From NCBI RefSeq assembly GCF_030936135.1, contig NW_026777143.1, positions 7,501-71,500 of the forward strand: a DNA stretch of 64,000 nt. The letters are read 5' to 3'. The position numbers and the translations under genes are program-made. Below are positions 1 through 58,630 of the stretch, piece by piece (position 1 is the first letter of the stretch; each line of letters begins with the position of its first letter). Source of the stretch: Gavia stellata (taxonomy: Eukaryota > Chordata > Aves > Gaviiformes > Gaviidae). The notes under the pieces were generated by a model that did no database searches, was not told the origin of the DNA, and saw only the letters and a program-made list of their open reading frames with translations.

Positions 1-25
1 CAAGAGACAAAAAGAGCGAATGCTT

Positions 26-31
26 CTTTAT
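26..31 (-). terminator. Candidate poly(A) signal, minus strand
   Basis: On the minus strand positions 31-26 read AATAAA. The 25 bases beyond it, out to the window edge, are T-rich with GT-type steps on the minus strand, as expected downstream of a cleavage site. It would be a natural 3' end for a leftward transcript coming through the repeat array, but one hexamer is weak evidence and transcripts cannot be seen here. Confidence 0.3.
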
Positions 32-1289
32 TACAACTTCATTGCATCAATTTTCTTTGGTTTACCTTAGGCTACTCCAAAAACTACGCCTCATTAGAGT
101 TCCAACTACCCTTATTAGCTCTCTAGGCAAAAACGGTAACTACAGCTTCCCTAAGAGCTTTCAATCTGCACTGCTTCATTTGATACTTTCCTTTACCCAT
201 ACTCAGGTTTATTCCACACCCTCTCTTATTGTCATCACCTTTTTGAGAGGGCTCCTTGGCGTGGGCGGCTATTAGGCCCGAGTTTAGTTTATGTTGCTTT
301 AAAGTGCCTCACAGTTTAACTAAGGAAAACCCTTTACTCTACTGCTAATACAAAAGATCTAATTTACAGCCCAAAAGATGCACACGTTCTGGGAACCCCT
401 GCACAGCTACATTTACCTCTGTGTATCAGCTACCATCCCTCATGTGCCTATTCCTATCTTTACATTATCATTTACAAAATTTGCCCCTGCCAGGCCCAAG
501 TCAGAGGGAGCTTCTGGTCCCGTAACTGCTTTCCATTTTTTTCCCTCCTGTGTAGAGCCACCTCCAGGTGTGCGAGGCGCACATCTCGCTTTGTACTTCC
601 GTTTGCCTTTTCGGTCATTACCGTGCTTTCAAGGGGGATGCGCTACCACCTGTATGTTAAACCTTTTTTGTGTTCGAATCGGTCCTTTTCCGACTCCTAA
701 CCGGCGTTACAGTATGTACGCCTACAGTTGAACTCTATGCTGTTCTTTACCTACCACAATACAAGTACACTCTGCATAGTAAATCGAGCAATCCATACTA
801 CTCCTTTTGTTCAGTTTTTAGTCATTTCTCTTATAAATACATTTAGACTCCATAAACTTTACCACTACCTTCATAGGCACAGCAACTCTTTAGTACCTGC
901 GATTCTCAGGTTAGGACGCTCTTCCACATTCCTCCCTCCCGTTACATCCACCGCTTTACATCCGGACATTTTCCTCTTCACGACAACGCTGTCTCCGCCG
1001 TTTGCATTCCCGGGCCAAAAGCCGGCGAGCTCTGCTTCTCTCAACACGCGGTCAACTACGGTGCCTACACGCCTAAATAAAATGCTGTCGGTTTCAGTAC
1101 ATCACAAACCACAAAGCCCTTAAAATTTTATTTTCAGTCACACCTGAGTTTAATACAGTTAGGCCCACCCACTTTGCACTCAAGCCCTCCTTGACACTGG
1201 CTCCCTAGTCTGACTCCCTACACCCTTCTACCAGAATATCTGTGACCGTATTCCCATGACCATACGCTAAACACCATACCTCCCTGCTA
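32..1289. other. Unassigned single-copy-looking sequence
   Basis: This stretch is lower in GC than the rest of the window. Only short open frames without recognisable domains occur (longest 131 codons at 728-1123), with no convincing splice-bounded exon chain and no transposon ends that I recognise. If the poly(A) signal at 26-31 is used, this would be the 3' exon or 3' UTR of the leftward transcript. Confidence 0.4.
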
Positions 1290-1373
1290 TGACAGACAAA
1301 TATCCCGTTCCAGGGGAGTGCTCCCCAGGAACACCATTCCCAGGGGCCTCAAAAATAAAAAAAAACACTCAAG

Positions 1374-2189
1374 AAACCACCCTGCCTGCCAAAACCCCGG
1401 CCCTGGCCCGACCTCCGCCCCAACGCTGGCGACGAACGTCGCCTCGCAGAGCGGCCGGGACCGGGGGAAAAAAAACACCCAGCTGGGGGAAGAAAAAAAA
1501 AATCCCCCAGCTGGGGTTTTTTTTATTCTATTTCTCTTTTCAAATGTCCAAAACAGACACCACTCTCAACTCCACCTCCAAGCTGCAGGGAAAAACACAT
1601 CAGGTAACACACAGTTCAGTATACAAGGCTAAGCACCTTCACAACACACCGCTCATTCAGCTACCGCCTAAACCGCCCCTCGCTCGCGCATCATCCGCTC
1701 CCGCCACCCACCCGCCCCGAGGGGCCGGCGCCCGTTTCCACCACGCTCCTGGGAACGGCGTTCCCGAGGGCCTCCAAAGAAAAACCACCCTGCCTGCCAA
1801 AACCCCGGCCCCGGCCCGACCTCCGCCCCAACGCTGGCGACGAACGTCGCCTCGCAGAGCGGCCGGGACCGGGGGAAAAAAAACACCCAGCTGGGGGAAG
1901 AAAAAAAAAATCCCCCAGCTGGGGTTTTTTTTATTCTATTTCTCTTTTCAAATGTCCAAAACAGACACCACTCTCAACTCCACCTCCAAGCTGCAGGGAA
2001 AAACACATCAGGTAAAACACAGTTCAGTATACAAGGCTAAGCACCTTCACAACACACCGCTCATTCAGCTACCGCCTAAACCGCCCCTCGCTCGCGCATC
2101 ATCCGCTCCCGCCACCCACCCGCCCCGAGGGGCCGGCGCCCGTTTCCACCACGCTCCTGGGAACGGCGTTCCCGAGGGCCTCCAAAGAA
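1374..2189. repeat. Two near-identical 408-bp tandem copies
   Basis: Copy 1 is 1374-1781 and copy 2 is 1782-2189. They differ at only a few positions by eye, and the end of a further copy is visible at about 1313-1373. Each copy contains an inverted repeat around CCAGCTGG and a GC-rich half. The open frame across both copies (1289-2245) simply repeats itself and is not evidence of a protein. The high identity points to a recent duplication or ongoing homogenisation. Confidence 0.85.
1478..1515. repeat. Inverted repeat inside the 408-bp unit
   Basis: The 13-base arm CCCAGCTGGGGGA (1478-1490) is followed, after a short A-rich loop, by its perfect reverse complement TCCCCCAGCTGGG (1503-1515). 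The same structure recurs 408 bp on, at 1886-1898 and 1911-1923, and in imperfect form at about 2730-2775. Each arm also contains its own palindrome, CCAGCTGG. Confidence 0.8.
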
Positions 2190-2900
2190 AAACCACCCTG
2201 CCTGCCAAAACCCCGGCCCTGGCCCGACGTCCACCCAAACGGTAGCAATAAAGGTCACCTTGCAGAGCACCTCGAAACATGGGGGTGGTGGTGGTGGTGC
2301 AGGGCAGGCCCAGGGCAGGAACCCACCGGGAGAAAGAAAAACAAAAAACCACAAAAAAACCAACCACACCCACCCTGGCTGGTTTTTCTCCCCCCACTAA
2401 ATGTCTGAAAAAAAATTTAATTGCATTTGTGCATACAACCTGCAAGGGAGTATTAAAAACAAAGCACACCCCAACACAACTATACAAGCTGAGGCACATG
2501 CAAAACATGCCCCTCGTTGAGCTACCGTGCAAACAGCTCCTCCCCCTCTCGGCTCATCGATTCTACCGCCCGCCAGAATGAGGCGTTGCTCCGTGTCTGT
2601 GCCGCTCCCCAGAGCCTCGATAATCGCCCCGCCCTCGTAAACCCAGGCCTGAGCCCATCCTCCTTCCAAACGCAGGCAACAAACATCACGTTGTAGAGTG
2701 GCCGGGACCGAGGGAAAACACAGCCGCCCAGCTGGGGGAGAAAGAGAAAACCACAACACACCCAGCTGGGGGATTTCTCCCCCCATTTGTATTGTTAAAA
2801 AAAGTTTTAGCATCTCAACATTAATTACAACCCACAACAAAACAGTTGACGCGTACAAGGTTAGACGCATTCAAAAACCGACGCTCATTCAACGTGCGCT
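2190..2900. repeat. Two diverged copies of the 408-bp repeat
   Basis: About 2190-2640 and 2640-2900 keep the order of landmarks of the 408-bp unit (CCTGGC-type GC-rich start, paired CAGCTGGGGGA arms in the second, then an AAATGT or ATTTGT segment, then TACAAGG and the GCTCATTCA or GTTGAGCTACCG end) but differ widely in sequence and length. They look like older members of the same tandem family. Confidence 0.6.
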
Positions 2901-4570
2901 CGATTCCACCCCTCGCTCTGAACATCTCCGTTTCGCCGCCCGCCCGCCGCCTCGGCGCATCGCCCCCGTTCTAAAGCCGTTCCCAGAACCGCGTCGCCGT
3001 GTGCCTCGAACGTCCGATTCCGATGCGTTGGCACGCATCGCCGTAAGTCAAGGAAGAGTCCTCGCTGCACATGCCGCTCCCTCTCAGTTGCTTTTATTTC
3101 TACACTCTGGCAAAACTTGCACGAGGATTTGCTCCGGGGATCCGAACGGCCCCACGGTGCCCGCATAACGCGGCAGAAGGGACTCTACAGCCCGCTTGCC
3201 TGTAGCTACCGGCTATCCCCAAAAACACCCCGCTACAACCTTCGCCCAAACAGGCCACGCTAATCGACGTATCTGCATCCCACATTTGGGCCGCTCCACC
3301 CCGAGCGGTACGGCTATGCACACAGACAAAGCCGCTCCGCCTCAAAACACATGCAAACAAACGTGACGTAAGGCTGCGAGAACAGCGCGCCGCATAGAGT
3401 TAACGCCGGACCGAAACGCGGCCTCGGGTTAAGCGTGACTGTCGCGGCCGCTCCGGCAGAGCCTGCCGTGCGAGAAGGCTGCGGCTCCAGACCGAGGGCA
3501 GGCAATGAGGCTGCAATGACCGCTCAAGACAAAAATGCCAGGAAATACTTAAGACTAAGATGACACAGGGAACAAAACCCCGGAAGAACTTGAGACGCTC
3601 GGCAAGAGAAGACCCAATAGCAAAGCCCTACTGAGAGCCATGAGACAGACTGGTCAAACACGCCTATGACGCTAAACCGGACCGGCAGCTTTCCGCTTCT
3701 ACGTCACGCTGCAAAACACGACACGGTCGATTGGCAACGCACCGATAACTGGAGACCAAAACGATGCCGCGGATGGCTACTCCGATCGCGGGATGAAGCG
3801 AGTACGCCGGAGCTTCCTCAGACGAGAAAGCCGAGACGCATCAACACGTTAGGTAAGGCACGCATACAAAACCACGCTAGGCATACAACATGACCCTACC
3901 CGCTCATCCCAGAGCCACTTTAAAGGTGCGCGCGCCTCGCGACCTTTTGCGCCCGCTACCCACGTGCGGCTCGCTCCCCGCAAACTACCCTCTCGTTACC
4001 CTGCCGTTTGGGGATGCGAGGTCCCCGCTCCCCACCGCTTCGCTTTCGCAGTGCTGTGGGTCGCCGTTTATCCTCAGTGGCCATCCTCAATGGATGCTTC
4101 ACATAAAAAGCTGCCTCACGTAAAAGCAAGGTTCCTTTACTCACCTCATGTCCCTCGGTCACCCGCAAGAACAACACACAGAGCTGTTTAATACACGCTT
4201 CATCCATGAGAGAGCGGCCCGCCAAAGCTCCGCTTCTCTGCTGTACTCCGACTCAAAATAACACACACGCGTTGCGGACAGAGTCCTCTAGCGCTTAACC
4301 CCAGAGCGTCAATAACGACCGAGACGGCCCAAAGCGACCGACCGTGCAGAGACCCGTCACGCAGCTCCTTGGACGTGGGCATCTCATCCGTTTCCAGAGG
4401 CTCGCTACAGGGCACCTGCAATAACAGTAGGATAACCGTTGCCGACTTGCCACGTTAGCTCACGCCACCTCGCAATCCCGCCGGGATCCGCTCGACTCCC
4501 GTTCGCATGCGCAGACACCCGAAAGTCACCTTAACTCTTCACACCGGCTACACGATGCCATACGTTGTGA
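2901..4570. other. CpG-rich sequence without a recognised gene
   Basis: CpG is frequent and apparently not depleted although overall GC is moderate, unlike ordinary bulk vertebrate DNA. Open frames are short (under about 160 codons) and resemble nothing I know. It could be a CpG island, a hypomethylated satellite flank or a very old diverged part of the neighbouring arrays. Confidence 0.45.
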
Positions 4571-4574
4571 CACG

Positions 4575-5280
4575 CTCACATTGCTCACCGCAAAACCCAA
4601 GTACAGACACAGGACAGTCTCAAATGGCTGTCAACCCAAGTACAGAGCTGCGCAACACAAGACAGTCTCACGCAGCAGTCCGCACAAGTACGGAGCGACG
4701 CAACCGCACTGGAAAACCAAGCACAGAGCACCGCAAAGCAAAGCCATCTCGCACGGCAGTCCGCACAAGTACGGAGCGACGCAACCGCACTGGAAAACCA
4801 AGTACAGAGCACCGCAAAGCAAGACAGTCTCGCACGGCAGTCTGTACCGGTGCTGAGCAACACACTGGAAAACTTAGTAGATTGACGCAACGCACCACAA
4901 AGCGAGACAGTCTCGCACGGCAGTCCGTACCAGCGTGGAGCGACGCAAACGCACTGCAGAGCCAAGCGCGGAGCGACACAAACGCGCTGCAGAGCTAGAC
5001 GGTCTTGGTGGCAGTCAATACAGGCGTGGAGCGACGCAAACACACTGCGGAGCCGAGTGCTGAGCGACACAAACGCGCTGCAGAGCAAGACGGTCTCGGG
5101 TGGCAGTCAATACAGGCGCAGAGCAATACGATCCACTGCAGAGCAAGACGGCCTCAGGTGGCAGTCAATACAAGTACAGAGCAATACAATGCACTAGAAA
5201 ACCAAATACAGAGCGATACTAATGCGCTATAAAACCAAATACAGAGCACTGCAACGCACTACAAAACCAGAACCGTGCAC
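4575..5280. repeat. CpG-rich minisatellite, period about 81 bp
   Basis: The motif GTCCGCACAAGTACGGAGCG at 4679 returns at 4760, 81 bases later. Shorter sub-motifs such as CAGAGCACCGCAAAGCAAGA and GACGCAAACGCACTGCAGAG recur throughout at roughly 27-30 base steps, so the unit is itself built of smaller repeats. Order degrades toward 5280. Long frames on both strands are by-products of the repeat. Confidence 0.8.
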
Positions 5281-5286
5281 GTGTGA

Positions 5287-7301
5287 GAAGCACAGCTTTA
5301 AGACCTAAGCCTATAGGAACGCAGCGTTGGAGTGTTGTAGGGGATCTCTGCAGAAACAGAACTTTCAATAGCTGGTCCAGATGGCCTCCGCAAAGGCAAC
5401 CCTCCAGAAACTCCTGCGATGCAAAACACACTTTAAGCTCCAATCGTGGGACCGGAATCGCGTGACAGGCTCTACGTCAAAGCGATGAGACGTTCAAGAC
5501 CCTCAGGACGCCTACCGAGGCACGTGCTGGGAGCGGAGAGCCTGCGGGGCAGAACGTAGAGACCTATGGAAGGCTCCATATAGGAGACAGAACACAGACT
5601 ACACCAGTGACACCGGGACGCAGACCGGAATTGTTCACATATTGCAGAACAGACCCCGGGCCCTCTATCCGCCAACAAACTTAACGGAGCCCGAATAACC
5701 CTCTCTGCAACCCTGACGTTAGACGCCCCCTGCTGGCCTCACCCCACCTACCGCTTCTGCCCCTCGACTTAGCTTTTGGAGGGCAGGGTCCACATTCCAT
5801 CCTCATCGGGAGCACGTCATCTAACCGGGATGTTCCCGCATTCACCCAGTTCCTCTTCATCACCTGCAAAGACAGAGCGCCGCCGGTCACCGACACGCCA
5901 GCCATCGATTCCAAAGTCACCTGCTGCGACCCCGATTGCTTCTGGCATCTAAGATACCAAGAGACACAAAGTTATCCTTGGGCTTATGAGAGGTCACCGG
6001 CCCCGGGCTCCTCCTCGCTACTACCTAGCTCACCACAGGTGGTCATCCGATTCCAAAGGCGGCCTGCACAGCACCTGCAAAACCAAAAAGGTAAATACTT
6101 AAGTGAGTTGCCATATAATACTTCACTACTAATCACCCACCCAGCCGACAACTCCTCACCTTCTCAGACTGCTCGTCGGCTGCGGCTTTGTCCCTACGAG
6201 GCTGCGTGCGGCACCTGCAAAAACCCAAGCAAAAGCCACATGCTGAGATACTGCCCAAAGCCGCAGCCTGTCCGCAGTTACTCCCCATCTCCTGCTCTTT
6301 ACCTCGGCTGCTCGCTGGCCCCGCCTCTGCCGTTTACAGGTTGTCAGGTAGAGGCTTGAGTACCACCTGTAAATCATAAACACAAGATACTCATAAAATT
6401 CACAAACAATACAACACCTGAAAAATAACTGCTACTTCGGCCCGCTAATCACAGCTCACCTTATCAGAGTCGGCTCCGGAGCCAACATCCTGCTTTGCAG
6501 CTTTACAATTAAAAAACCCGCAAAACAAAACCTCTAGGCTAGTCACGCAGCCACTAGTCACATCTGCCCTCGGACACCACGCGCCGAACCGCCTTCTTAT
6601 GGCGCTCCGCTCACGTCTGCTCCGTCGCCTGTTGACACGCCGCTTATCCTGCTCCGTCTGAAAAAGCAATATTGAACAAGTCACCCAGATGCCAATCGAT
6701 GGCTTAAGAATTCTAGAGGTCTCGATTCCATTTAGGAATACCATCTACATTCCAACTACAGCCTGCCATTACAAAACCCACATAAAGACCGAAACCTTTA
6801 AGCCCCACACATACAAGCCTTAACGCCTTTGAGATTGTCTGCTTTACTACGCTGAACAGCCCCTCCCACGCAGTGCTGATCATCTCCATAAAACGCTATT
6901 GAAGCAACCGTCCACACAACCTGCCGACAGCTACTCGATCCAAGATGACTGTACGATCGCTGCCTAGACAGTCTAGGCACATCAACGTACCGTAACTGTA
7001 GACTCTTCCTGCTACTCCACCTACCCCTGACACCACACCCCCGAGCAGAGCAGCTCCGAGCCAGACGCACGCGCACGCACGCCAACGCTACTCTGAACGC
7101 TACAGACAACATGACTCAAAGATGAGAGAAAACTCTCAGCAAGAAGAATGACGCCTAGACCGGAGACTCTGTCGCGCTAGAAGACCTAAACGGCCACAAC
7201 GATGAGACGAGGCGGCTCTACGGCAGCCCCGAAGAAGAGTCGCACATGATGGCCCCTGACAAGAAGCAGTCCCTGTCAAAACTGAGACGATGGATGCGCA
7301 G
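5287..7301. repeat. 2-kb array, unit 1
   Basis: This is the leftmost and most diverged unit of the array, starting at GAAGCACAGCTTTAAGACCT. It carries the landmark TAACTGCTAC at 6427 and the type-A segment with the palindrome at 6961-6979. Minus-strand exon-like blocks flanked by AG and GTGAG signals are seen near 6035-6090, 6150-6220 and 6455-6500, but several have lost their donor or acceptor, so this unit may not splice normally. Confidence 0.75.
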
Positions 7302-9410
7302 TAAGCCCGGTTTCAAGACTTAAGAACATAAGGATGCAGGGCAGAACAAGTCACAGTCCATGAAAATAGACTGAGAGAGCAGAGCTGCCGACGCAGCCTG
7401 GAACGATGCCGCAAAAAGAGGACCGATGGAAACTTCTGAGGCGCGAGACCGATCCACGCTTTAAGCTTATAACGCAAGAAAAGAAGCGCCCGATTGGCTC
7501 TGTGCCGACGAGTACGGGCATTCGAGACGCTAGGGATGGCAACCGAGGCGCATGCTGCGCTCCTCAAGCGCAAAGAGCAACGAGGACTTTGAGACCCAAG
7601 GAAGAGCTAAGACACAGAAGACAGACCGCACAAACTACACACCGACACACAGACACAGGCTGGAACTGCCCTGCCGGGCACACGTTAGTCTTGTGCCGAA
7701 GAGTACCCCGCTCCCTTTACCTGCCCAAAGGGGACCGTTCCTGGACAGTCCTCTCCCCTACGCTACCTTTAAAACCCCTCCCTGCAATTCCCAACCTTGT
7801 CCCCTCCTCCAAGCCCCAGTCCCTCAACTTAGCTGTCGGAGCACCCGGGGTCTGAATCCATCCTCAAAGTTACATCGGCTAACTGGAATGTTCCTGCAGT
7901 CAACAGGTTCCTCTTCATCACCCACAATAAAAATCAAAAACAAAGCAGTGCCAGCTGTGAGCATCACATCGGCCAACAACAACCTCTTCCACAACACATC
8001 CCTCCTCAGATGAGACGTGGCATTCTGCTCACCTGCTCGTTCCCAAATTGGACGCTGCGGCTGTCGTCACCTGTTTTAGGTAAGATTCCAAGAGACACAA
8101 AATTATCTCTGGGCTTGTGAGGAGTCACCAGCCCCACGCTCCTCCTCACTACCACCCCAGCTCACCCCAAATGAGCATTCAGTTCTAAAGGCGGCCCACG
8201 CAGCATCTGCAAAACCGAAAGGTAAATACTTAAGCGAGTTGCTGTGTAATACTTTGCTCTTGGACACCGACACAGCCAACCGCCTTACCTTCTCATACTG
8301 CTCATCAGCGTGTGGCTTCACCTTGCCGAGTCTGCATGCAGCACCTGGAAAAAAAACAAAGCAAAAGGCACATGCTGACATGCCACCCAAAACCTCAGCC
8401 TGCCCGCAGCAATTCCCATCTCCCACTCGCCCACCTGGCCTCCATCCTTTTGGGCTGCCACACTGAGGCTCAGGTACCACCTGTAGACACAAACAACAGG
8501 GGATGCTTCTACCTTCACCAACAATAGAACACATGAAAAATAACTGCTACTTCAGCCCACTAGTCATGGCTTACCTTGCCCAAAGCAGCTCCGCTACCAC
8601 TATCCCACTGTTATCATCATTTCACACATTCAAAATAAGGAAAGACAGAACCACAGTGTAGTCATACAGCCACCAGGTGCATCTTCCTCCAACACCGTGC
8701 ACCAACCCACCTTCTTATGGCACAGCGCTCGCCTGCTCTGTTGCTCTTTGGTGCTTATCTTGTCCCTCTGCATGCAAAAAAAAAAATATTGATCATGTCT
8801 CCCAGATGCTGATTGATAGCTGAAAAACTCCAGAGGTCTCAATTCCATTTAGGAATACCATCTAGACTCCAATTACAGCCTGCCATTACAAAAAACAGAC
8901 CAAACCTTAAGTCCAACACATACAAGCCTTAATGCCTTTGAGATTCGATCTGCTTCGCTACCGCTGAACAGCCCCTCCCACACAGTTCCAATCGTCCCCA
9001 CAAAACATTATGGAAATGACTGTCCACACAACCTGCCGAAGGCTACTCGATCCGAGATGACTGTACAACCCTTGCCTAGACAGTCTAGGCACATCAACAT
9101 AGCATAACCGTAGACTCTTCCTGCTATTCCACCTACCCCTGACACCACACCCCCGGGCAGAGCAGCTCCGAGCCAGACACATACATGCAGAGACCAACAC
9201 TATACATAACGCTACAGACAACATGACTTGAAGATGAGAGAAAACCCTCAGAAAGACGACTGATGCCCAGAACAGAGATGCTGTCAGGCAAGATGACCTA
9301 CAGGGCTGCAACAATGAGGCGAGGAGGCTCTACAGCAGCCCCAGAAAGGAGTCAAACGTTACAGCCCATAACAAGAAGTCACTGTCAAAACTCAGATGAT
9401 GGATGCATGA
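7302..9410. repeat. 2-kb array, unit 2
   Basis: The landmark TAACTGCTAC lies at 8541, 2114 bases after that of unit 1. The type-A segment has its palindrome at 9073-9091. Exon-like blocks lie on the minus strand near 8045-8085 (shortened to 38 bases), 8172-8215, 8285-8345 and 8705-8775. Copies of an open frame on the minus strand (7313-7573 here) recur in other units with shared residues KLKAWIGL. Confidence 0.8.
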
Positions 9411-11417
9411 GAAGCCTGGCTTCAAGACCTAAGAGCGTGAAGGTTGCGAGGAAGAAGTCCCAGTCTGTGAAAATAGACGGCTAGAGAGCTGAGCTGCTGA
9501 CGCAGCCTGGAACCATGCCGCAGGAGAAGACTGATGAGAAACTTCAAGACGAGACCGATCCACGCTTTAAGCTGATAACGCAAAAAAAGAAGCGTCCGAT
9601 TGGCTCTGTGCCAATGAGTACTGGCATTTGAAACCCTAGGGATGGCACCCGAGGCGCACGCTGCGCTCCTCGAGCGCAAAGAGCAACAAGAACGCTGAGA
9701 CCCGAGGAAGGTCTAAGACACAGAAGGCAGACCGCACAAACTACACACCGACACACAGACGCAGGCTGGAACTGCCCTGCCCACGCTAGTCTTGCCCCAA
9801 AGAGTAACCCGCTCCCTTTACGCAGGCAGCCCTCTCCCCTACGCTAACTTTAATGCACCTCCCTACAATTCCCAACTTTATCCCCTCCTCCCAGGCCCTC
9901 CCCTTCAACTTAGCTTTCAAAGAGCCAGGAATTTGATTCCATCCTTGACAAGAAAAAGAAATCTGTATTGGATAACTGGGATGTTCCTGCTGTAGTTACC
10001 ACATTCTTCTTCACCACCTGCAAGAAAAACAAGCACCAGCAGCGAGCACCCTGTCAGTTGATACCCATGTCTTCAACATCACCCTCCTCCTCAAAAACAA
10101 TATGGCCTTGTGCTCACCTGCTCCGCATGGATTCCAGAGTCAGATGCTGTGGTCATGATTACTTCTGGCACCTAAGATACCAAGAGACAGACTATTACTG
10201 TTGTGCTTGCGAGAAGTCACCAGCCCCGTGCTCCTCCTTACTACTACCCAGCTCACCTCAAAAGCTCATCCAATGCCAAAGGCGGCCTGCAGGGTGCCTG
10301 CAAAACCAAAGAGGAACGTTTCGCTGAGTTGCTGCAGCATACTTTGCTCCGAGACACTGACCCAGCAAAAGCCGTCTCACCTTCTCGGACTGCTCGTTGC
10401 CATGCTGCTTCACCCCTCCGAGCCCATGTACAGCACCTGAAAGAGAAAAGAGAGCAAAAGACACATGCTGAGATACTGCTGAAACTGCAGCCTGGCCACA
10501 GCTATTCCCATCTCCCACTCCTTTACCTTAGGCTGCCTCCACCATTTACAGGTCACCACATTCAGACCTAGCTGCCACCTGGAAGACACAGACAGGGGAT
10601 GCTTCTAACTTCACCAACAATACAAGTCCTGAAAAAAATAACTGCTGCTTCAGCCCACTAGTCACGGCTTACCTTGCCCGAGGCAGCTCCAGAGCCGGTA
10701 TCCTGCTTTGCTCATTGCTTCCACCTTCAAAGGTAAAAAACAAACCAAAACTTCTAAGGTAGTCATATAGCCACCAGTCACGTCTTCCCTCTGACACCAC
10801 ACAACAAACCACCTTCTTACGGCAACTGCTCGCCTCCTGTCACCCTTTGGCCCGTGGCTCGTCCCTCTGCATCTGAAAAAGCAATATCAAGCAAGTCACC
10901 CAGATGCAGACCGATAGCTGAACAACACCAGGGGTCTTGTTTCCATTTAGGAATACCATCTGGAGTCCAACTACACCCTACCATAAAAAAATTCTGGTCA
11001 TCCCCTGTGTCTGCATAACACTATGGAAATTACTCTCCTCACCTGCTGCATATATGGCTACTTGCTCTGAAATGGACTGTACACCCTTTGCCTACAAAGC
11101 CTTGGCCTGTCAAGATATTACCTAGAGAATCTTACTGCTATTTTCCTGCTGAGCCTATCACTGCTACGCCTCCAGGCAGAGCAGCTCCAACCCAGACAAA
11201 AACCACACACAGACCAACGCTGCACACAAACAAGACAAAGGACAAAACCCAGGGACATAAGAACGCTCCCTGTAAGAACGACTCCCGGACCAGAGATGCC
11301 ACCAGGCGAGAAGGCCTAGGGGGCCGTGAGGAAGAATCTACGGCAGCTCCAGAAAAAGTCGAATGCCGTGCCCCTCGACAAGAAGATATGGCCGCAACTG
11401 AGATGAAGCATGCGCAA
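9411..11417. repeat. 2-kb array, unit 3
   Basis: The landmark lies at 10639, 2098 bases after unit 2. It carries a type-B right segment (about 10,937-11,417) instead of type A. Minus-strand exon-like blocks include 10118-10171 (54 bases, 18 uninterrupted codons, AG before and GTGAGC after) and 10673-10724 (52 bases, GTAAGC after). Confidence 0.8.
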
Positions 11418-13495
11418 GAAGCCCTGCGTAAAGGCCTAGGAATGTAGGCATGCAGGGAAGAAGTCTGAGAAAAGGGATCCATGAAAACAGGCCGGTCAAG
11501 ATCAGAGCTGCTGACTCGGCCTGGAACAATGCCACAAAAAGAGGACTGACCAGAAACTTCTGACACGCAAGTCCTATCCACGCTTCAAGCTTGTTATGCA
11601 AGGAAAGCAGCGCCCAGTTGGTACTATGCCAACGCATACAGGTATTCGAGACTGTGTTCCTTGAGCGCAAAGATGACACGGAGACTTCAGGAAGGTCTAA
11701 GACACAGAAGACAGACTGCATAAACTACACAACACCACACCGACACAGGCTGGAACTGCCCTGCCCACACTAGTCTTGTGCTGAAAAGTAACCCGCTCGC
11801 TTTACCTGGACAGCCCTCTCACCTACACTACCTTGAAAACGCCTCCCTGCAAGTCCCAACCTTGTCTGTCTCCTCCCAGCTTTGGTCCTTCCACTTATCT
11901 TACAAAGGGCCACAGGTCTGAAGCCATCCTCAAGAACACACCCACACAAACCACATTAGCGAACTGGAACATTTCTGCAGTCGCCAGGTTCCTCTTCATC
12001 ACCTGCAAAAAAGAAAACAAACCAAACAAGTGCCAGCAGTAAGCGTCACATCAGTCAACACCGACCTTTTGCACGACACCCTCCCCCCCAAAAGCAAGGC
12101 GGTCTTCCGCTCACCCGCACCGTGCCGACTCCAAAGTCGAACGCTGTGGCCATCATCGATTCTGGCACCTAAGATACCGAGAGAGAAAATTGCTGTTGCG
12201 CTTGCGAGAAATCACCAGCCCCGCGCTCCTCCTCGCTACTACCCAGCTCACCTCAAAAGCTCGTCCAATTCCACAGGCGGCCCACACGGCACCTGCAAGA
12301 CCACAGAGAAATGCTTCATGGACTGGCCACAGGATACTCTGCTCTTAGACACCAACCCAGACAACAAACACTTCACCTTCACGGACCTCTTGTCAGCACG
12401 CTGCTTTGTCCCTCTAAGGCAATGTGCAGCACCTGCAAAAAGGCACATGCTGAGGTAATGCCCAAAACCACTGGCTGCCTGCAGTGATTCCCATGTCCCA
12501 CTCCTTTACCTCGGCTGCTCACCCGCCCCGCCTCTGCTATTTACAGGTTGCTACACTGAGGCTCAGTTATCACCTGTAAGACACAAACAACAAGGGATGC
12601 TTCAACCTTCACCAAGGATACAAGACCTGAAAAATAACTGCTACTTGAGCCTGCTAGTCATGGCTCACCTTGCTGGAGTCAGATCTAGTGCCAATATCCT
12701 GCTTTGCACCTTTAAAATTAAAGACGACAAAATCTATAAGCTAGTCATACAGCCACCGGTTGCATCTTCCCTCCAACACCACACACCAACCCACCTTCTC
12801 AAAGCGTTCTGCTGGCCTCTCCTCCATCACCCATTGGCACACAGCTCGTTGCTCTGCATCTGAAAATGCAATATTGAATGAGTCACCCAAATGCTGATTG
12901 ATAGCTGAACAGGTCCAGAGGTATCGATTCCATTTAGAAATACCATCTGGAGTCTAACTACAGCCTGCCATTATAACAAAAGAGACCAAAAACTTTAAGC
13001 CCCACACATACAAGCCTTAACGCCTTTGAGATTCAGTCTGCTTCACTACCGCTGAACAGCCCCTCCCACATGGCTCTAATCACCCCCATCAAACGCTATG
13101 GAAATGACTGTCCACGCAACCTGCCGATGGCTACTCAATTTGAGATGACCGTACAACCATTGCCTAGATAGTCTAGGCATATCAACATATTAACCGTAGG
13201 CTCTTCCCGCTATTCCACCCACCCCTGACTCCACACACCCGGGCAGAGCAGCTCCAAGCCAAACACACACACAGAGACCGACACCCCTCAAAACACGACA
13301 GACAATACAACTCAAAAGACAAGAGAAAAGCTCTCGGCAAGAACAACGATGTCCGGACCAGAGATGCTGTCGGGCAAGAACACCTACAGGGCCGCAACAG
13401 TGAGGCGAGGAGGCTCTATGGCAGCCCCAGAAAAGAGTGCGACATAATGGCCCATAAGAAGTTACAGTCAAAACCGAGATGATGGATGCACAAGA
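11418..13495. repeat. 2-kb array, unit 4
   Basis: The landmark lies at 12635. It has a type-A segment with a slightly altered palindrome at 13161-13179. The 54-base exon-like block is at 12115-12168. About 12,045-12,700 is nearly the same as 14,145-14,800 of unit 5, while the left end of the unit matches unit 6 instead, so units are mosaics. Confidence 0.8.
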
Positions 13496-15515
13496 GGCCT
13501 GGCTTCAAGACCAAAGAACATAAGGATGCAGGGAATAGTCTCAGTCCGTGACTATAGAAGGCTAGAGAGCAGAGCTGCTGACACAGCCTGGAACAACGCC
13601 GCAAGAGAACCGACCGGAAACTTCAAGAGAAGTGAGACCGATCCAGGCTTTAAGCTTGTAATGCAAGAGAATAAGCACCCGATAGGTACTATGTCGATGA
13701 ATACAAGCATTTGAGACCTGAGGGATGGTGCCCAAGGCACATGCTCTGCTTCTTGAGCGCAAAGAGCAATGAGGCCATTAGGACCCAAGGAAGGTCCAAG
13801 ACACAGAAGACAGACTACACAAACTACACCACACCGACACAGGCTGGAACTGCCCTGCCCAGCACACATAATGTGTTGCTGATAAGCAACCCACTCCCTT
13901 TACCTGGACAGCCCTCTCCCCTACACTACCTTTTAATCCCACTCCCCGCCATTCCCAACCTTGTCTGCCTCCTCCCAGCCCCAGTCCTTCAACTTAGCTT
14001 TCAGAGGGCCAGGGGTTTGAATCCATCCTCGACGAAAACCAAACAAGCCACATTGGCTAACTGGGGCATTCCTGCAGTCGCCAGGTTCCTCTTCATCACC
14101 TGCAAAAAAACCCCAAGTGCCAGCAGTAAGCATCACGTCAGTCGACACTGACCTCTTGCACAACACCCTCCCCCTAAAAGCAAGGTGGCCTTCTGCTCAC
14201 CCGCACCGTGCCGACTCCAAAGTCAAACGCTGTGGCCATCATCGCTTCTGGCACCTAAGATAGCAAGAGAGAGAAAATTACTGTTGCGCTTGCGAGAAAT
14301 CACCAGCCCCACGCTCCTCCTCGCTACTACCCAGCTCACCTCAAAAGTTCGTCCAATTCCACAGACGGCCCACACGGCACCTGCGAGACCAAAGAGAAAC
14401 GCTTCACAGAGTGGCCACAGGATACTCTGCTCTTAGACACCGACCCAGACGACAACCACCTCACCTTCGTGGACCTCTTGTCAGCACGCTGCTTTGTCCC
14501 TCTAAGGCAATGTGCAGCACCTGCAAAAACAAAAGCAAAAAGGCACATGCTGAGGTACTGCCCAAAACCGCAGCCTGCCTGCAGCGATTCCCATCTCCCG
14601 CTCCTTTGCCTCGTCTGCTCACCCGCCCTGCCTCTGCTATTTACAAGTTGCTACACTGAGGCTCAGTTATCACCTGTAAGACACAAACAACAAGGGATGC
14701 TTTGACCTTCACCAAGAATACAAGACCTGAAAAATAACTGCTACTTCAGCCCACTAGTCACGGCTCACCTTGCCTGAGCCACCTCCGGTGCCGATAGCCT
14801 GCTATGCTCATTGCTTCGCACCTTCAGAATAAAAAACCCAAAACCTATAAGGTAGTCATATAGCCATCAGTCACATCTTCCCTCTGACACCACACAACAA
14901 ACCACCTTCTTGCACCGACCACTCACGTCTCCTCTTTTGCCCATAGGCGCCCGGCTCATACCTCTGCATATGGCAAAGCAATATTGAACAGCTCACCCAG
15001 ATGCAGACCGATAGCTGAACAACACCAGGGGTCTTGTTTCCATTTAGGAATACCATCTGGAGTCCAACTACACCCTACCGTGAAAAAAAACTGGTCATCC
15101 CCTGTGTCTGCATAACACTATGGAAATTACTCTCCTCACCTGCTGCATATATGGCTACTTGCTCTGAAATGGACTGTACACCCTTTGCCTACAAAGCCTT
15201 GGCCTGTCAAGATATTACCTAGAGAATCTTACTGCTATTTTCCTGCTGAGCCTATCACTGCTACGCCCCCAGGCAGAGCAGCTCCAACCCAGACAAAAAC
15301 CACACACAGACCAATGCTGGCCACAAACAAGACAAAGGACACAACCCAGGGACATAAGAACGCTCCCTGTAAGAATGACTCCCGGACCAGAGATGCCACC
15401 GGGCGAGAAGGCCTAGGGGGCCGTGAGGAAGAATCTACGGCAGCTCCAGAAAAAGTCGAATGCCGTGCCCCTCGACAAGAAGATATGGCCGCAACTGAGA
15501 TGAAGCATGCGCGAG
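13496..15515. repeat. 2-kb array, unit 5
   Basis: The landmark lies at 14735, 2100 bases after unit 4. The type-B segment (about 15,034-15,515) is close to 98 percent identical by eye to that of unit 3, 4097 bases away. The 54-base exon-like block is at 14201-14254. This pair is the youngest duplication visible in the array. Confidence 0.8.
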
Positions 15516-16830
15516 AAGCCCTGCGTAAAGGCCTAGGAATGTAGGCATGCAGGGAAGAAGTCTGAGAAAAGGGATCCATGAAAACAGGCCGGTCAAGATC
15601 AGAGCTGCTGACTCGGCCTGGAACGATGCCACAAAAAGAGGACTGACCAGAAACTTTGAGATGCAAGTCCTATCCACGCTTCAAGCTTGTTATGCAAGGA
15701 AAGCAGCGCCCAGTTGGCACTATACCAACGCATACAGGCATTTGAGACCCTAGGGATGGCACCCAGGGGACATACTGTGCTCCTCAAGCACAAAAAGGAC
15801 ATGGAGACTTCAGGAAGGTCTACCAAACAGAAGACAGTCTGCACAAACTACACCACACAGACACAGGCTGGAACTGCCCTGCCCACGCTAGTCTTGTGCT
15901 GAAGAGTAACCCGCTCGCTTTACCTGCCCAAAGGTGACTCTTCCTGGGCAGCCCTCTCCCCTACGCTAACTTAAATACCCCCCCTGCAATTCCCAACCTT
16001 GTCCCCTCCAACCAGAGTCCCCTCCTCAGTCCCAGTCCTTCCACTTAGCTTTCAGAGGGCCAGGGGTCTGAATCCATCCTACACAAAAAACACATCAGCT
16101 AACTGGGATATTCCTGCAGTTGCCACATTCCTCTTCATCATCTTCACAAAAACAGTGCCAGCAGTAAGCATCACATCAGTCAACATTCACCTCTTGCACA
16201 ACACCCTCCTCCTCAAAAGCAAGGTGGCCTTCCGTTCACCTGCTCTGTACTGATTCCAAAGTCGGACGCTGTGGCCATCATCGCTTCTGGTACCTAAGAT
16301 ACCAAGAGACAGAAAACTACTGTTGCGCTTCTGAGAAGTCACCGGCCCCGTGCTCCTCCTCACTACTACCCCAGCTCACCTCAAATCCAGTTCCAAATGC
16401 AGCCTGAATGGCTCCTGCAAAACCAAAAGACAAAGACCTGAGCTGCCACATGATGATCTGCTCTTAGACACAGACCCAGCTGAGAACCGCCTCACCTTCT
16501 CAGACCACTCATCAGCCTGCAGCTTCACCCCTCCCAGCCTGCTGCAGCACCTGAAGAAACCAAAGCAAAAGGCACACGTGAGATACTGCCCGAAACCACA
16601 GCCTTCCAGCCTTTCATTACTTTACCTTGGTGGTTCACCTGCCAAACACAAACAAGGGATGCTTCTAACCTCACTACAACACAACACCTGAAAATTAACT
16701 GCTACTTGAGCCCACTAGTCACAGCTCACCTTGCCTGAGTCACCTCCAGCACCAATAGCCTGCTTCGCTCATTGCTTCCACCTGCAAAATAAAAAAATAC
16801 CAAACCTGTAAGCTACTCACTCCTGATGCT
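15516..16830. repeat. 2-kb array, unit 6 (incomplete)
   Basis: This is the rightmost unit, with its landmark at 16696. The left half is very close to unit 4 (11,418 onward), and similarity ends shortly after the 52-base exon-like block at 16730-16781. The 54-base block is at 16240-16293, with donor GTGAAC. It is the first unit that a leftward transcript would meet. Confidence 0.75.
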
Positions 16831-17299
16831 TATAATGTATGAGGGGCCTGCTGCTAGCTGTAAAGGTTTAGGGACAAATTAGTGCTCTGTGGGCAACCAG
16901 GTAATTAGCTGCCCCATACCCTGAAAGACACTATGAATCATATCCCAGCTGCTTTCTTAAGAAGTGTTAAAAGTCCATATACAGATGCATACGAAATGCT
17001 CACCCTAACCCCTGCTAGAAAATCTCATCATCAGTCCTATTAGCAGAGACTATATCGGTAACAGACACAACACACAGTACAACTGGTGAAAAAACCAAGG
17101 TTCCACCATCAATGAAGTCAGGAATTCAAGGAAAATGCAAGGCACCTAGAGTAAAAAAAAAACCCTACACACAATCAAAGCATCTTACTGCCCCTGAACA
17201 CTCAATACAAAATTACTGACCTGAAAAAAACCCCACCGCATACAGATGTACTTTCTACTACATATGCTGCTGAAGCTCAACAGGTCCTGAAGCTCTTAC
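16831..17299. other. Unique sequence between array and promoter
   Basis: Moderate-GC sequence that does not match the units and has no substantial open frame. If the predicted leftward transcript is real, this is its first intron, from the donor at 17,299 to the acceptor near 16,782. Confidence 0.4.
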
Positions 17300-17427
17300 C
17301 TCAGACAGACACCTCCGCTTCTCTAAATATCAAAACACACCTGCCCAAAGAGCTTAGGCAGCTCAAAAGCAGCAATTGACTGAAGGAACAGCAGAGCACC
17401 AACACCAGAGAAGCCCAGGAGCAGAAT
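17300..17427 (-). other. Predicted noncoding first exon
   Basis: From the initiator A at 17427 the minus strand runs 128 bases to GAG followed by GTAAGA, a strong donor. The exon contains no ATG. One frame is hydrophobic (ELILLLGFSGVGALLFLQ) and looks like a signal peptide, but it lacks a start codon. A weaker donor (GTGTGT) at 17,340 is possible. Confidence 0.4.
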
Positions 17428-17487
17428 GAGCTCCCTGAGGAGCGGCTGTGGCTCATATACCCCGGGCCTCGCCCACCGCCCCTCCCA
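17427..17487 (-). promoter_or_regulatory. Minus-strand TATA-initiator promoter with GC boxes
   Basis: Minus strand: GC-box/KLF-type sequence GTGGGAGGGGCGGTGGG (17487-17471), then TATATGA (17459-17453), then TCATTCT, a match to the YYANWYY initiator, with its A at 17427. The spacing of 32 bases from the first T of the TATA to that A is what functional core promoters show. It faces the 2-kb array. Confidence 0.5.
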
Positions 17488-17526
17488 CAACCACCCGGAG
17501 AAGGGGAGGGGTGAATTGCCTGAAGG

Positions 17527-17532
17527 CATAAA
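17527..17532 (+). promoter_or_regulatory. Possible divergent TATA variant
   Basis: CATAAA on the plus strand lies about 70 bases from the minus-strand TATA, across shared GC boxes, so the region may fire in both directions. The first plus-strand ATG (17591) opens a frame of only ten codons, so any rightward product would be noncoding. Confidence 0.25.
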
Positions 17533-17639
17533 GGCGGCTGGAGGAGCAGCAGGGAGTTTGCTCATCTGCCTTAGGTTTACAGGATATAAGATGCTGAATG
17601 GAGAAAGTGACCCTTACTGAAAATTACAATACCTGCTCT

Positions 17640-18249
17640 TTTACTACAAGTACATCTATTGCATCAGCAACGTGACCGGGTAGGGAATGAAGCTTAATTT
17701 TTCTGGGGCATAGATAGAAAAAGGTAGATGTTGTACTAAGCTATGTAAGAAAGTAGTTCATTAAAAGTAATAACTATATTATTATGAAAAATTATGTGCT
17801 TTAGTTTCCTATAAAAAACCAAAATGCTCTGGAGTTACACTTCATTTCCAGCAAGACCACGCATGCCACCTAACGTCTACCGGAACTATGTTCTGGGTAG
17901 GACGCAGTGACAAAGCAGAATTAGAACCCGTAGGACTCCCTTCTCACAAATATCTCTATTTGCAAAGTAAATTATTTACTTTAAATCGTTGATGATTCAG
18001 AGTCACCTTGACAGTCTCTCCGACTGACTCCCTTAAGAGAATTAGATGAGTCTCAAAGGACAGAAAACACCAAAAAAAATCGAAATACAAGAAATTTATC
18101 AAGCTGTATGAAGCAGCCTAATTAGCACCTAGGTAGCTAGAACAAAAATAAATTGCAAAGCACAACAGAAAACACCACAGGAGACATGTCAATAAAAAGA
18201 GAGGAAGGTTATCGCCTCCTCTGAAAAACTGAAGAGGGGATCTTAGCCG
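17640..18249. other. AT-richer intergenic sequence, nothing recognised
   Basis: No open frame of note, no repeat structure and no splice-bounded block seen. It separates the putative promoter region from the satellite to its right. Confidence 0.5.
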
Positions 18250-19740
18250 ACGATAGACATCTGTGGGGCACCAGATAACCACACAGAAACATACTATAAG
18301 ATGGGAAATAAAAAGACCACTCTGGAGCACAAAGATGGCTTCGGAAAAGGTTCTGACAGAACAAGAGGCATCGTCACGGGGATTAGAGAAGTCCCGAAGG
18401 GGCCAGAGAGACCAAAGAAGTCTTGGGGACGCAACGAGCTCAAAAGGGAATTGAACAAAGTACAGATGTCCTCCTCGGGGGACCGGGGACTGAATGGAGG
18501 CGCGCCAAATGGATGAGAGGACAGAAAGACCCTCCGGGGTAACACGTGTGGACTCGGGAAGCGTTCTGAGGGGAAAAGAGGGTGCAACGCACCCTCCCGA
18601 GCTAAAACAGGGCTGTAGGGTATAGGGGAGGTCTCGCAAGAACTCAGCAAAGGGAGCGGAGGAGTCCCGAGGGGGCCTGAGAGACCAAAGAAGCCTCAGA
18701 GGTAACAATGAGGAACTCTGAAGGGGATTTCAACAAAGTACAGATGTCGTCAGGGATCCGGGGGCTGAACGAAGGCATCCTAAACGGCAAAGAGTAAGAT
18801 AACAGCGCTCTGAAGTGCGCACAAAAATAAAATTGAAAGGGAGCTGAAGTGCTACAAGAGTGCTGCGGAGTACAAGAAAGGACTCGGAAGACATAGACAG
18901 TGGAAGAATTACGAGGGGGCACGGTGAGAAAAGACGACTTGGAGACGCAGCGAGGGCCTTGGAGTTTCAGGAGGGCATCGGGGCAAACTACAGGTGACTG
19001 AGAGAGGAACCAAATGGAGACACCCTCGATGGCAGAGAGAAAGACAAAGGAGCGCTGCACAGCAAAGAAAGAAGGGAGGCGCTGATGGAGCAAGAGAGCT
19101 AGAAAGGGCGATGAAGTGCCACGAGGTGCCGTGGAGATCGAGGAAGGTCTCGGTAGGCATCGTGACTGTGAGGAGAGGGGTGTCGAGGGGTGCTAACGGA
19201 CAAGACAAGGCTCGGGGATGACAAAGAGGAACTCGGGTGATCATCTGAGCAGGGTACAGACGGTCTCGGGTGGTAAGGGACTGAACATGGAAATCCTAGA
19301 TAGCGTAGAGGAACAAATGAGTGTTCTGTGGCTCAAAGATGGTCCCATGTAAAGTGCTAAAAGATGGATGTGGTCTCTGGAGGCATCGTGACTGGGAGAA
19401 GAAACGTCCTGAGGGAGCCAGAAAAAGGATTGGGAAATCAACAATTAAATCCAGAGGGGATCTCAGCCGATAAACGTGTCATCAGAGGGCCAGGGAGCAA
19501 GTAGAGGCGTGGCTAGAGGGAAGAGAGGAGAGAATGACCGGGCTGGGTCACAGATACGGACTCAGGAAGTCTTCTGAGTGAACGAGAGGGATGTGAGGTC
19601 CACCACAAAGCTAAAAGTGTGCTAAGGGCAACCGTGAAGGCATCACGACACCATTGGAGGGGTCCTGATTGCGCCAAAGAAGGCTCAGGGACACGAGGAG
19701 GAAGTCTGGAGGGGATCTGAACAGAGTACGCGGGTGTACT
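18250..19740. repeat. Diverged satellite, units of about 205-278 bp
   Basis: Landmarks such as AAAGTACAGATGTC recur in altered form at about 18252, 18457, 18735, 18985, 19252, 19472 and 19724, giving spacings of 205-278 bases. Each is followed by GGGACTGAA-like and GGCATC-like segments and preceded by GTCCCGA(G)GGGGCC(T)GAGAGACC. Indels are common, so this is an old tandem array. The minus-strand frame 18118-18708 is repeat-driven. Confidence 0.75.

Positions 19741-48438: not shown

Positions 48439-53934
<5,496 letters not shown>

Positions 53935-54415: not shown

Positions 54416-58630
<4,215 letters not shown>

Follow-up and report, generated by a model that had tools for sequence, protein, structure and literature searches.

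A candidate spliced noncoding transcription unit directed toward the telomere at many chromosome ends of Gavia stellata

The stretch of Gavia stellata DNA analyzed here (64,000 nucleotides, C939:7501-71500, hereafter the window) belongs to a 1.32-Gb genome of 1185 contigs and carries near its left end six tandem units of about 2 kb preceded by a promoter and a short exon. On the strength of its sequence features, this locus is probably a subtelomeric noncoding spliced transcription unit, repeated at many chromosome ends, aimed at the telomere and working in the manner of the telomeric repeat-containing RNA (TERRA). The contig has about 2.5 kb of CCCTAA repeats at its start, and the window is therefore subtelomeric on its left side. 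From the contig end inwards, the order of elements is as follows: telomere repeats, a 5-kb region with short tandem repeats, the six 2-kb units, exon 1 with its promoter and, from about 20 kb, a GC-rich chromosome arm. All the elements of the locus are described on the minus strand, which is referred to as the sense strand. We infer from the letters of the DNA that the locus would be transcribed, and how far transcription would proceed.

A preliminary description of this DNA had singled out one candidate locus. Its observations are in large part borne out, and that description had missed that it belongs to a subtelomeric module of at least 40 copies, which face the chromosome ends wherever this can be judged. 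The genome was searched using the promoter and the first unit as a query, and 40 of 382 candidates were scored; the figures of this search are lower bounds. At least 40 copies, window included, were found on 36 contigs ranging from 133 Mb down to a few tens of kb; each matches the query over at least 154 to 1701 of its 1701 bases, and the 39 copies other than the window are 84-93% identical to it. On contigs larger than 200 kb, all the scored copies (18/18) face the nearest contig end at a distance of 18-44 kb, with one exception at 133 kb, and on these 16 contigs the scored copies occur one per end in a single orientation. The exception (C2:113584457-113586179) lies much further inward than the other 39 scored copies. 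On shorter contigs, which say little on orientation, 16 of 22 copies face the nearest end. Telomere repeats were seen in 5 of the 11 contig starts inspected; in the others, the part retrieved consisted of N or other sequence. As the minus strand is the TTAGGG strand at left ends, a transcript of the unit would run in the direction of TERRA.

The promoter is the most constant part of the module. A TATA promoter and an ATG-less exon with a donor had been noticed to the right of the array, and both hold across the copies compared. The TATA element GTATATGAG (17452..17460) occurs unaltered in 36 of 39 copies, and 37 of 39 have GTRAG as the exon-1 donor, in a count covering 39 of the 40 copies, window included, with one partial copy and three refetches of one place set aside. 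Exon 1 (17300..17427) is devoid of ATG and is followed by a donor GT at 17299-17298; its start near 17427 is predicted from the spacing to the TATA element. A 3-kb alignment was built from 23 of the 40 copies, window included. The core promoter (17421..17560) is its slowest part, with a nucleotide diversity (pi) of 0.065 against a mean of 0.107, and none of 499 control windows in 17780-14850 is as low. The exon-1 donor is lost in 2 of these 23 copies. Beyond the promoter, an upstream flank (17561..19200) of opposite GC skew is homologous up to about 18.1-19.2 kb in the 7 copies for which upstream sequence was retrieved. A 28-base match of the promoter pattern to an Acinetobacter contig was judged to be due to chance, as blastn finds no similarity beyond those 28 bases, and the pattern had no match in viral contigs.

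The composition of the locus changes at the predicted start. GC skew of the sense strand is -0.18 over 17428-19200, +0.22 over the array (5287-17427), +0.19 over 1301-5286 and +0.31 over 1-1300; the sign of the skew thus changes at the predicted start, from which the skew remains positive over 17 kb. The same step is observed in all 7 other copies for which 1.5 kb of upstream sequence was available (-0.03 to -0.17 before, +0.28 to +0.33 after), and the stretches read of four other ends display a sense skew of +0.22 to +0.32. TA skew shows no step, being positive both before and after the start. Among rare variants, C>T changes exceed G>A changes (P = 0.02). A part of PMC2927911 reports a GC skew above 0.1 near gene 5' ends and below 0.06 further in for primates and rodents, and according to a part of PMC5286223 a substantial number of human subtelomeres have a positive skew immediately after the predicted start of TERRA. 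The orientation of the copies on large contigs (18/18), taken together with the skew, suggests that transcription toward the telomere is what matters.

The array occupies about 5.3-16.9 kb and consists of six direct-repeat units spaced by 1.96-2.1 kb, each with ordered minus-strand blocks and splice signals. Units 1 (14963..16923, first or promoter-proximal class), 3 (10867..12862, middle class) and 4 (8769..10866) were delimited by unit alignment and a tree. Unit 2 (12863..14962, middle class) carries predicted exons A (14821-14769), C (14520-14465), D (14380-14340) and E (14254-14201). The six units and the common order of their blocks, as initially proposed, are upheld; the signals themselves are partly decayed, since unit 5 (6654..8768, penultimate class) has lost the acceptor AG of A and E and unit 6 (5287..6653, last class) is missing the end of E together with its donor. 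The individual junctions named at that stage are all present in the sequence, namely the exon-1 donor GT at 17299, A at 16781-16730 and E at 16293-16240, 14254-14201 and 10171-10118. Arrays were read at four ends (the window, the left end of C1, C33 and C31) and contain 6, 4, 6 and 6 units, respectively. In a tree of these 22 units, the first, penultimate and last units each form one clade across the four ends with a support of 100/100, and the middle units are variable in number. The likeliest history suggested by this tree is that the module was assembled first and spread over the ends later, its middle part expanding and contracting.

Splice donors provide further evidence. The motif AGGTGAG occurs 17 times on the sense strand of the array against 2.45 expected, and GGTGAG 26 times against 9.0, the other strand having none for 1.4 expected. 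The six units are not independent and conservation is consequently better evidence than motif counts. Between unit classes, which differ by about 30% (mean identity 0.70), the four donor windows reach an identity of 0.857 against a background of 0.694, a value attained by none of 1870 circular shifts. Among the 16 sense GGTRAG columns of the 22-unit alignment, the four predicted donors are the best kept (0.75-0.98, the next being 0.63), and a single such column exists on the antisense strand. In the 23 copies, GT is kept at donors in a proportion of 0.94 on average, compared to 0.79 at other GTs. In the unit comparison, the GT of the C donor is lost in 3 of 4 class-6 units.

The predicted exons of unit 1 are short and nearly constant in length over the 23 copies. 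Exon A (16730..16781) measures 52 nt in all of them, with a GT donor in 18 and a GC donor in 5; exon C (16496..16550) measures 56 nt in 20 copies, 55 in 2 and 44 in 1; exons D (16380..16414) and E (16240..16293) measure 35 and 54 nt in every copy. The donors of C, D and E are GT in 23/23. Block B (16626..16638) also has one length in all copies and is a doubtful exon. Exon blocks avoid length change, as only 1 of 1116 shifted masks displays as few gap patterns; this effect becomes modest when homopolymer indels are left aside (21 of 1111 shifts as low). Two intron stretches are among the best-kept 60-base blocks between unit classes: that following exon D (GTGAGCTGGGTAGTAG...GAGGAGGAGC, about 16310-16380, and its counterparts) with an identity of 0.80 compared to the mean of 0.70, and that following exon A with 0.83.

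A number of observations weigh against a functional spliced unit. Acceptors are weakly conserved between unit classes, where 170 of 1870 shifts do as well; in the 23 copies the AG of acceptors is retained to the same degree as other AGs (0.89 versus 0.887), and that of block B is lost in 8 of them. Exon sequence evolves at the background rate between unit classes (1027 of 1870 shifts are as conserved) and exon diversity among the 23 copies is ordinary (712 of 1116 shifts are as low). Module copies exchange sequence and are therefore not independent. The scarcity of sense AATAAA in the array (0 against 0.6 expected; antisense, 3 against 3.2) brings no independent support as it is predicted by composition alone, and the excess of A>G over T>C among rare variants does not reach significance (P = 0.12). 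As the skew exceeds that of ordinary genes in both strength and extent, it may in part have a different origin, for instance a G-rich ancestry. Splice dinucleotides changing as fast as their flanks had been put forward as a sign that the unit is not spliced; within this genome, donors are slower than their flanks, acceptors weakly so, and exon sequence is no slower.

One rival explanation is an inert subtelomeric repeat, whose fossil promoter and splice signals would be kept alike by gene conversion without any transcription. The strong similarity across ends, the unconstrained exon sequence and the lack of clear acceptor conservation all agree with such a repeat. Conversion nevertheless leaves unexplained why promoter and donors are slow and exons are not, even between classes differing by about 30%, and we regard an inert repeat as quite unlikely.

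A protein product was considered as well. The 54-nt block had been described as open over 18 codons in four units, which proved correct for block E in units 1-4 of the window; the block measures 47 nt in unit 5 and 44 nt in unit 6. Frame 0 of block E is open in 22/22 unit copies and 23/23 unit-1 copies, and the block's variation by codon position (0.104, 0.140 and 0.212) is highest at third positions. Both features are those expected if exons A-E had formerly been coding and the locus were a decaying protein-coding gene family. The check for codon-position bias proposed in the preliminary description did not bear this out: third positions do vary most, yet 13 of the 37 variants are synonymous against 10.6 expected, which is not a significant excess (P = 0.17). 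The C-D-E frames do not join, block lengths vary between units and, in the RNA predicted from exon 1 and unit 1, ATG frames reach at most 16 amino acids. Three open reading frames (ORFs) of the window are stop-free in just 2, 7 and 2 of the 23 copies, window included, and Pfam matches in ten ORFs all fall below the curated cut-offs. No conserved reading frame of a protein-coding family was thus found, only block E staying open, and a decaying gene appears very improbable. It had been proposed that a repeat-built noncoding RNA or a decaying gene fits better than an intact protein; comparison of the copies favors the noncoding option and gives no support to an intact coding gene, the decayed gene being weakly supported.

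Other classes of RNA were also searched. A single Rfam match reaches its gathering score in the whole window, a microRNA located far to the right. Six further matches obtained by E-value in the first 20 kb are all below gathering scores and were taken as chance. Intronic snoRNAs, suspected from GTGATGA boxes, are not supported by the Rfam searches, and a tRNA scan of the DNA was empty.

The locus displays the pattern of a long noncoding RNA (lncRNA) gene: promoter and splice donors are conserved, exons and frames are not, and acceptors are weakly so. Since the promoter and donors are slow, the exons free and no frame kept, the production of the RNA, rather than its sequence, appears to matter; what is expected to be conserved is the making and splicing of an RNA and not a protein or an exon sequence. 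The mechanism that we propose can be briefly summarized as follows. RNA polymerase II would start near 17427 at the TATA promoter and run along the minus strand through the tandem array toward the telomere. The RNA would be spliced, with the short exons (A, C, D and E) of one unit joined to those of the next. The product would be a G-rich RNA of the same strand as UUAGGG, most likely made in the manner of TERRA or of a TERRA precursor. U1 sites are established for other genes as an aid to long polymerase travel, and the dense strong U1 sites of the array would help the polymerase to stay on for 15-25 kb. That the RNA enters the telomere itself is proposed tentatively, as the less probable outcome.

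Without this telomeric role, the same observations would describe a self-contained subtelomeric lncRNA gene, polyadenylated before the telomere, whose position and direction result from exchange between ends. The splice and promoter evidence fits such a gene equally well. Sense AATAAA sites are present beyond the array at 3098, 1935, 1527, 1132, 213 and 32, and a part of PMC13431229 describes bird and mammal subtelomeres as biased to interchromosomal duplication. The positive skew, on the other hand, continues past these sites to window base 1, and is also present in the stretches read on the telomere side of C1 and C32. A self-contained gene is a plausible explanation, somewhat short of an even chance.

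The telomere-side continuation of the array (1..5286) is G-rich on the sense strand and CpG-rich from 2.5 to 5 kb. Its CpG observed/expected ratio is 1.04-1.17 over 2501-5000, compared to 0.16-0.69 over 8501-17000. Window positions 106-4634 are collinear with the end of C1 at 80% identity. Between array and telomere, a 408-bp tandem duplication and short tandem repeats of 32-91 bp (1374-2241 and 4636-5269) were also observed.

The promoter exists in a second context. In a promoter-only search, 40 of 94 candidates were scored, of which 20 were already among the module copies; the 20 further matches are located on 11 small contigs of 22-78 kb (C850, C670, C483, C731, C626, C610, C416, C358, C345, C162 and C78). 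Six of the 11 carry two or three promoter matches on the same strand, 8.6-20.3 kb apart. In the sole unit fetched (8.6 kb; C416:2700-11900), the promoter is followed by exon 1, unit 1, a fragment of unit 2 and a 4.2-kb stretch of a satellite of about 190 bp, after which the upstream region recurs. This satellite yielded 7696 first-look candidates in the genome, 40 of which were scored, and promoter and satellite lie on one strand in the 9 contigs common to both searches. The TATA element and the exon-1 donor are exact in all 10 macrosatellite promoters fetched, which are nearly alike. Upstream of the promoter in C416, GC skew is negative or close to zero; downstream, it is about +0.3 and remains so through the satellite, apart from a single 500-base block near zero. 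This copy keeps the donors of A, C and D and has lost that of E.

Such units raise the possibility that the module is a selfish or passive promoter-bearing macrosatellite of the D4Z4 type, spread by recombination and producing RNA as a by-product. Both the promoter heading tandem units among the scored matches of small contigs and the satellite content of the unit fetched speak for it. The single copy per end and single orientation scored on the 16 contigs above 200 kb are at odds with it, as is the conservation of promoter and donors above their surroundings, and we hold a macrosatellite to be unlikely. D4Z4-type macrosatellites are subtelomeric tandem arrays of kb-sized units with promoters and distal splicing; the present locus differs from them in that no kept protein frame was found and that each array has one promoter at the ends read.

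The favored reading, a spliced unit aimed at the telomere, can be compared to human TERRA regions, which, according to parts of PMC12242772 and PMC5286223, resemble the locus in their subtelomeric start, telomere-ward direction, occurrence at many ends and positive GC skew after the start. The subtelomeric, telomere-pointing position is observed here through the repeats at the contig start and the 18/18 orientation, and the positive skew downstream of the start in the window and 7/7 other copies. The features of the human type I promoter (CpG-rich, with 61-29-37-type repeats, near the telomere) were not found at this promoter: its region displays a CpG observed/expected ratio of 0.30-0.47 over 17001-18000, no tandem repeat was reported there and the telomere tract is at least 17 kb away. 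Human type II TERRA regions also lack 61-29-37-type repeats. Unlike human TERRA regions, the locus has a TATA promoter without a CpG island and tandem units with splice signals. It is consequently likened to TERRA-type transcription and not filed as a TERRA gene, because the human type I promoter features are lacking and the locus is known here from DNA alone. A bolder proposal is that of an avian TERRA gene, with a TATA promoter on nearly every chromosome end, a U1-dense array carrying the polymerase 15-25 kb into the telomere and most of the subtelomeric RNA being spliced out; in front of the 190-bp satellite, this promoter would make a G-rich satellite RNA by the same design. We consider this proposal doubtful.

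Among birds, the closest known RNA is PO41 of chicken and quail, described in a part of PMC4301066 as noncoding and derived from a subtelomeric tandem repeat. The PO41 unit is 41 bp long, both of its strands are transcribed and the RNA mostly appears as a single focus, whereas the present units measure 2 kb and carry one-sided signals; identity with PO41 was ruled out, as the tandem repeats of the first 20 kb include no 41-bp period. Subtelomeres receive one passing mention in the part considered of the complete chicken genome paper (PMC9974502). For the chromosome ends of birds, neither a promoter nor a spliced unit was found in searches of open-licence papers. To our knowledge, little is known of telomeric RNA production outside mammals and yeast. 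With a promoter, a predicted start and splice donors common to at least 18 ends, the question of telomeric RNA becomes directly testable. The locus also offers a case in which splice donors persist and exon sequence changes freely.

The right part of the window is GC-rich and contains MCM7 exons on the plus strand at 49638-53931, as indicated by MCM_OB, MCM, MCM_lid and HTH_MCM7 matches. A mir-17-family hairpin, presumably miR-93-like, lies between two of these exons at 52903-52982; mir-25 and mir-106b sequences, searched with up to 3 mismatches, were not found. Further on, an ORF at 54632-55213 displays a MitMem_reg match right at the cut-off (26.6 bits) and is possibly an exon of a neighboring minus-strand gene.

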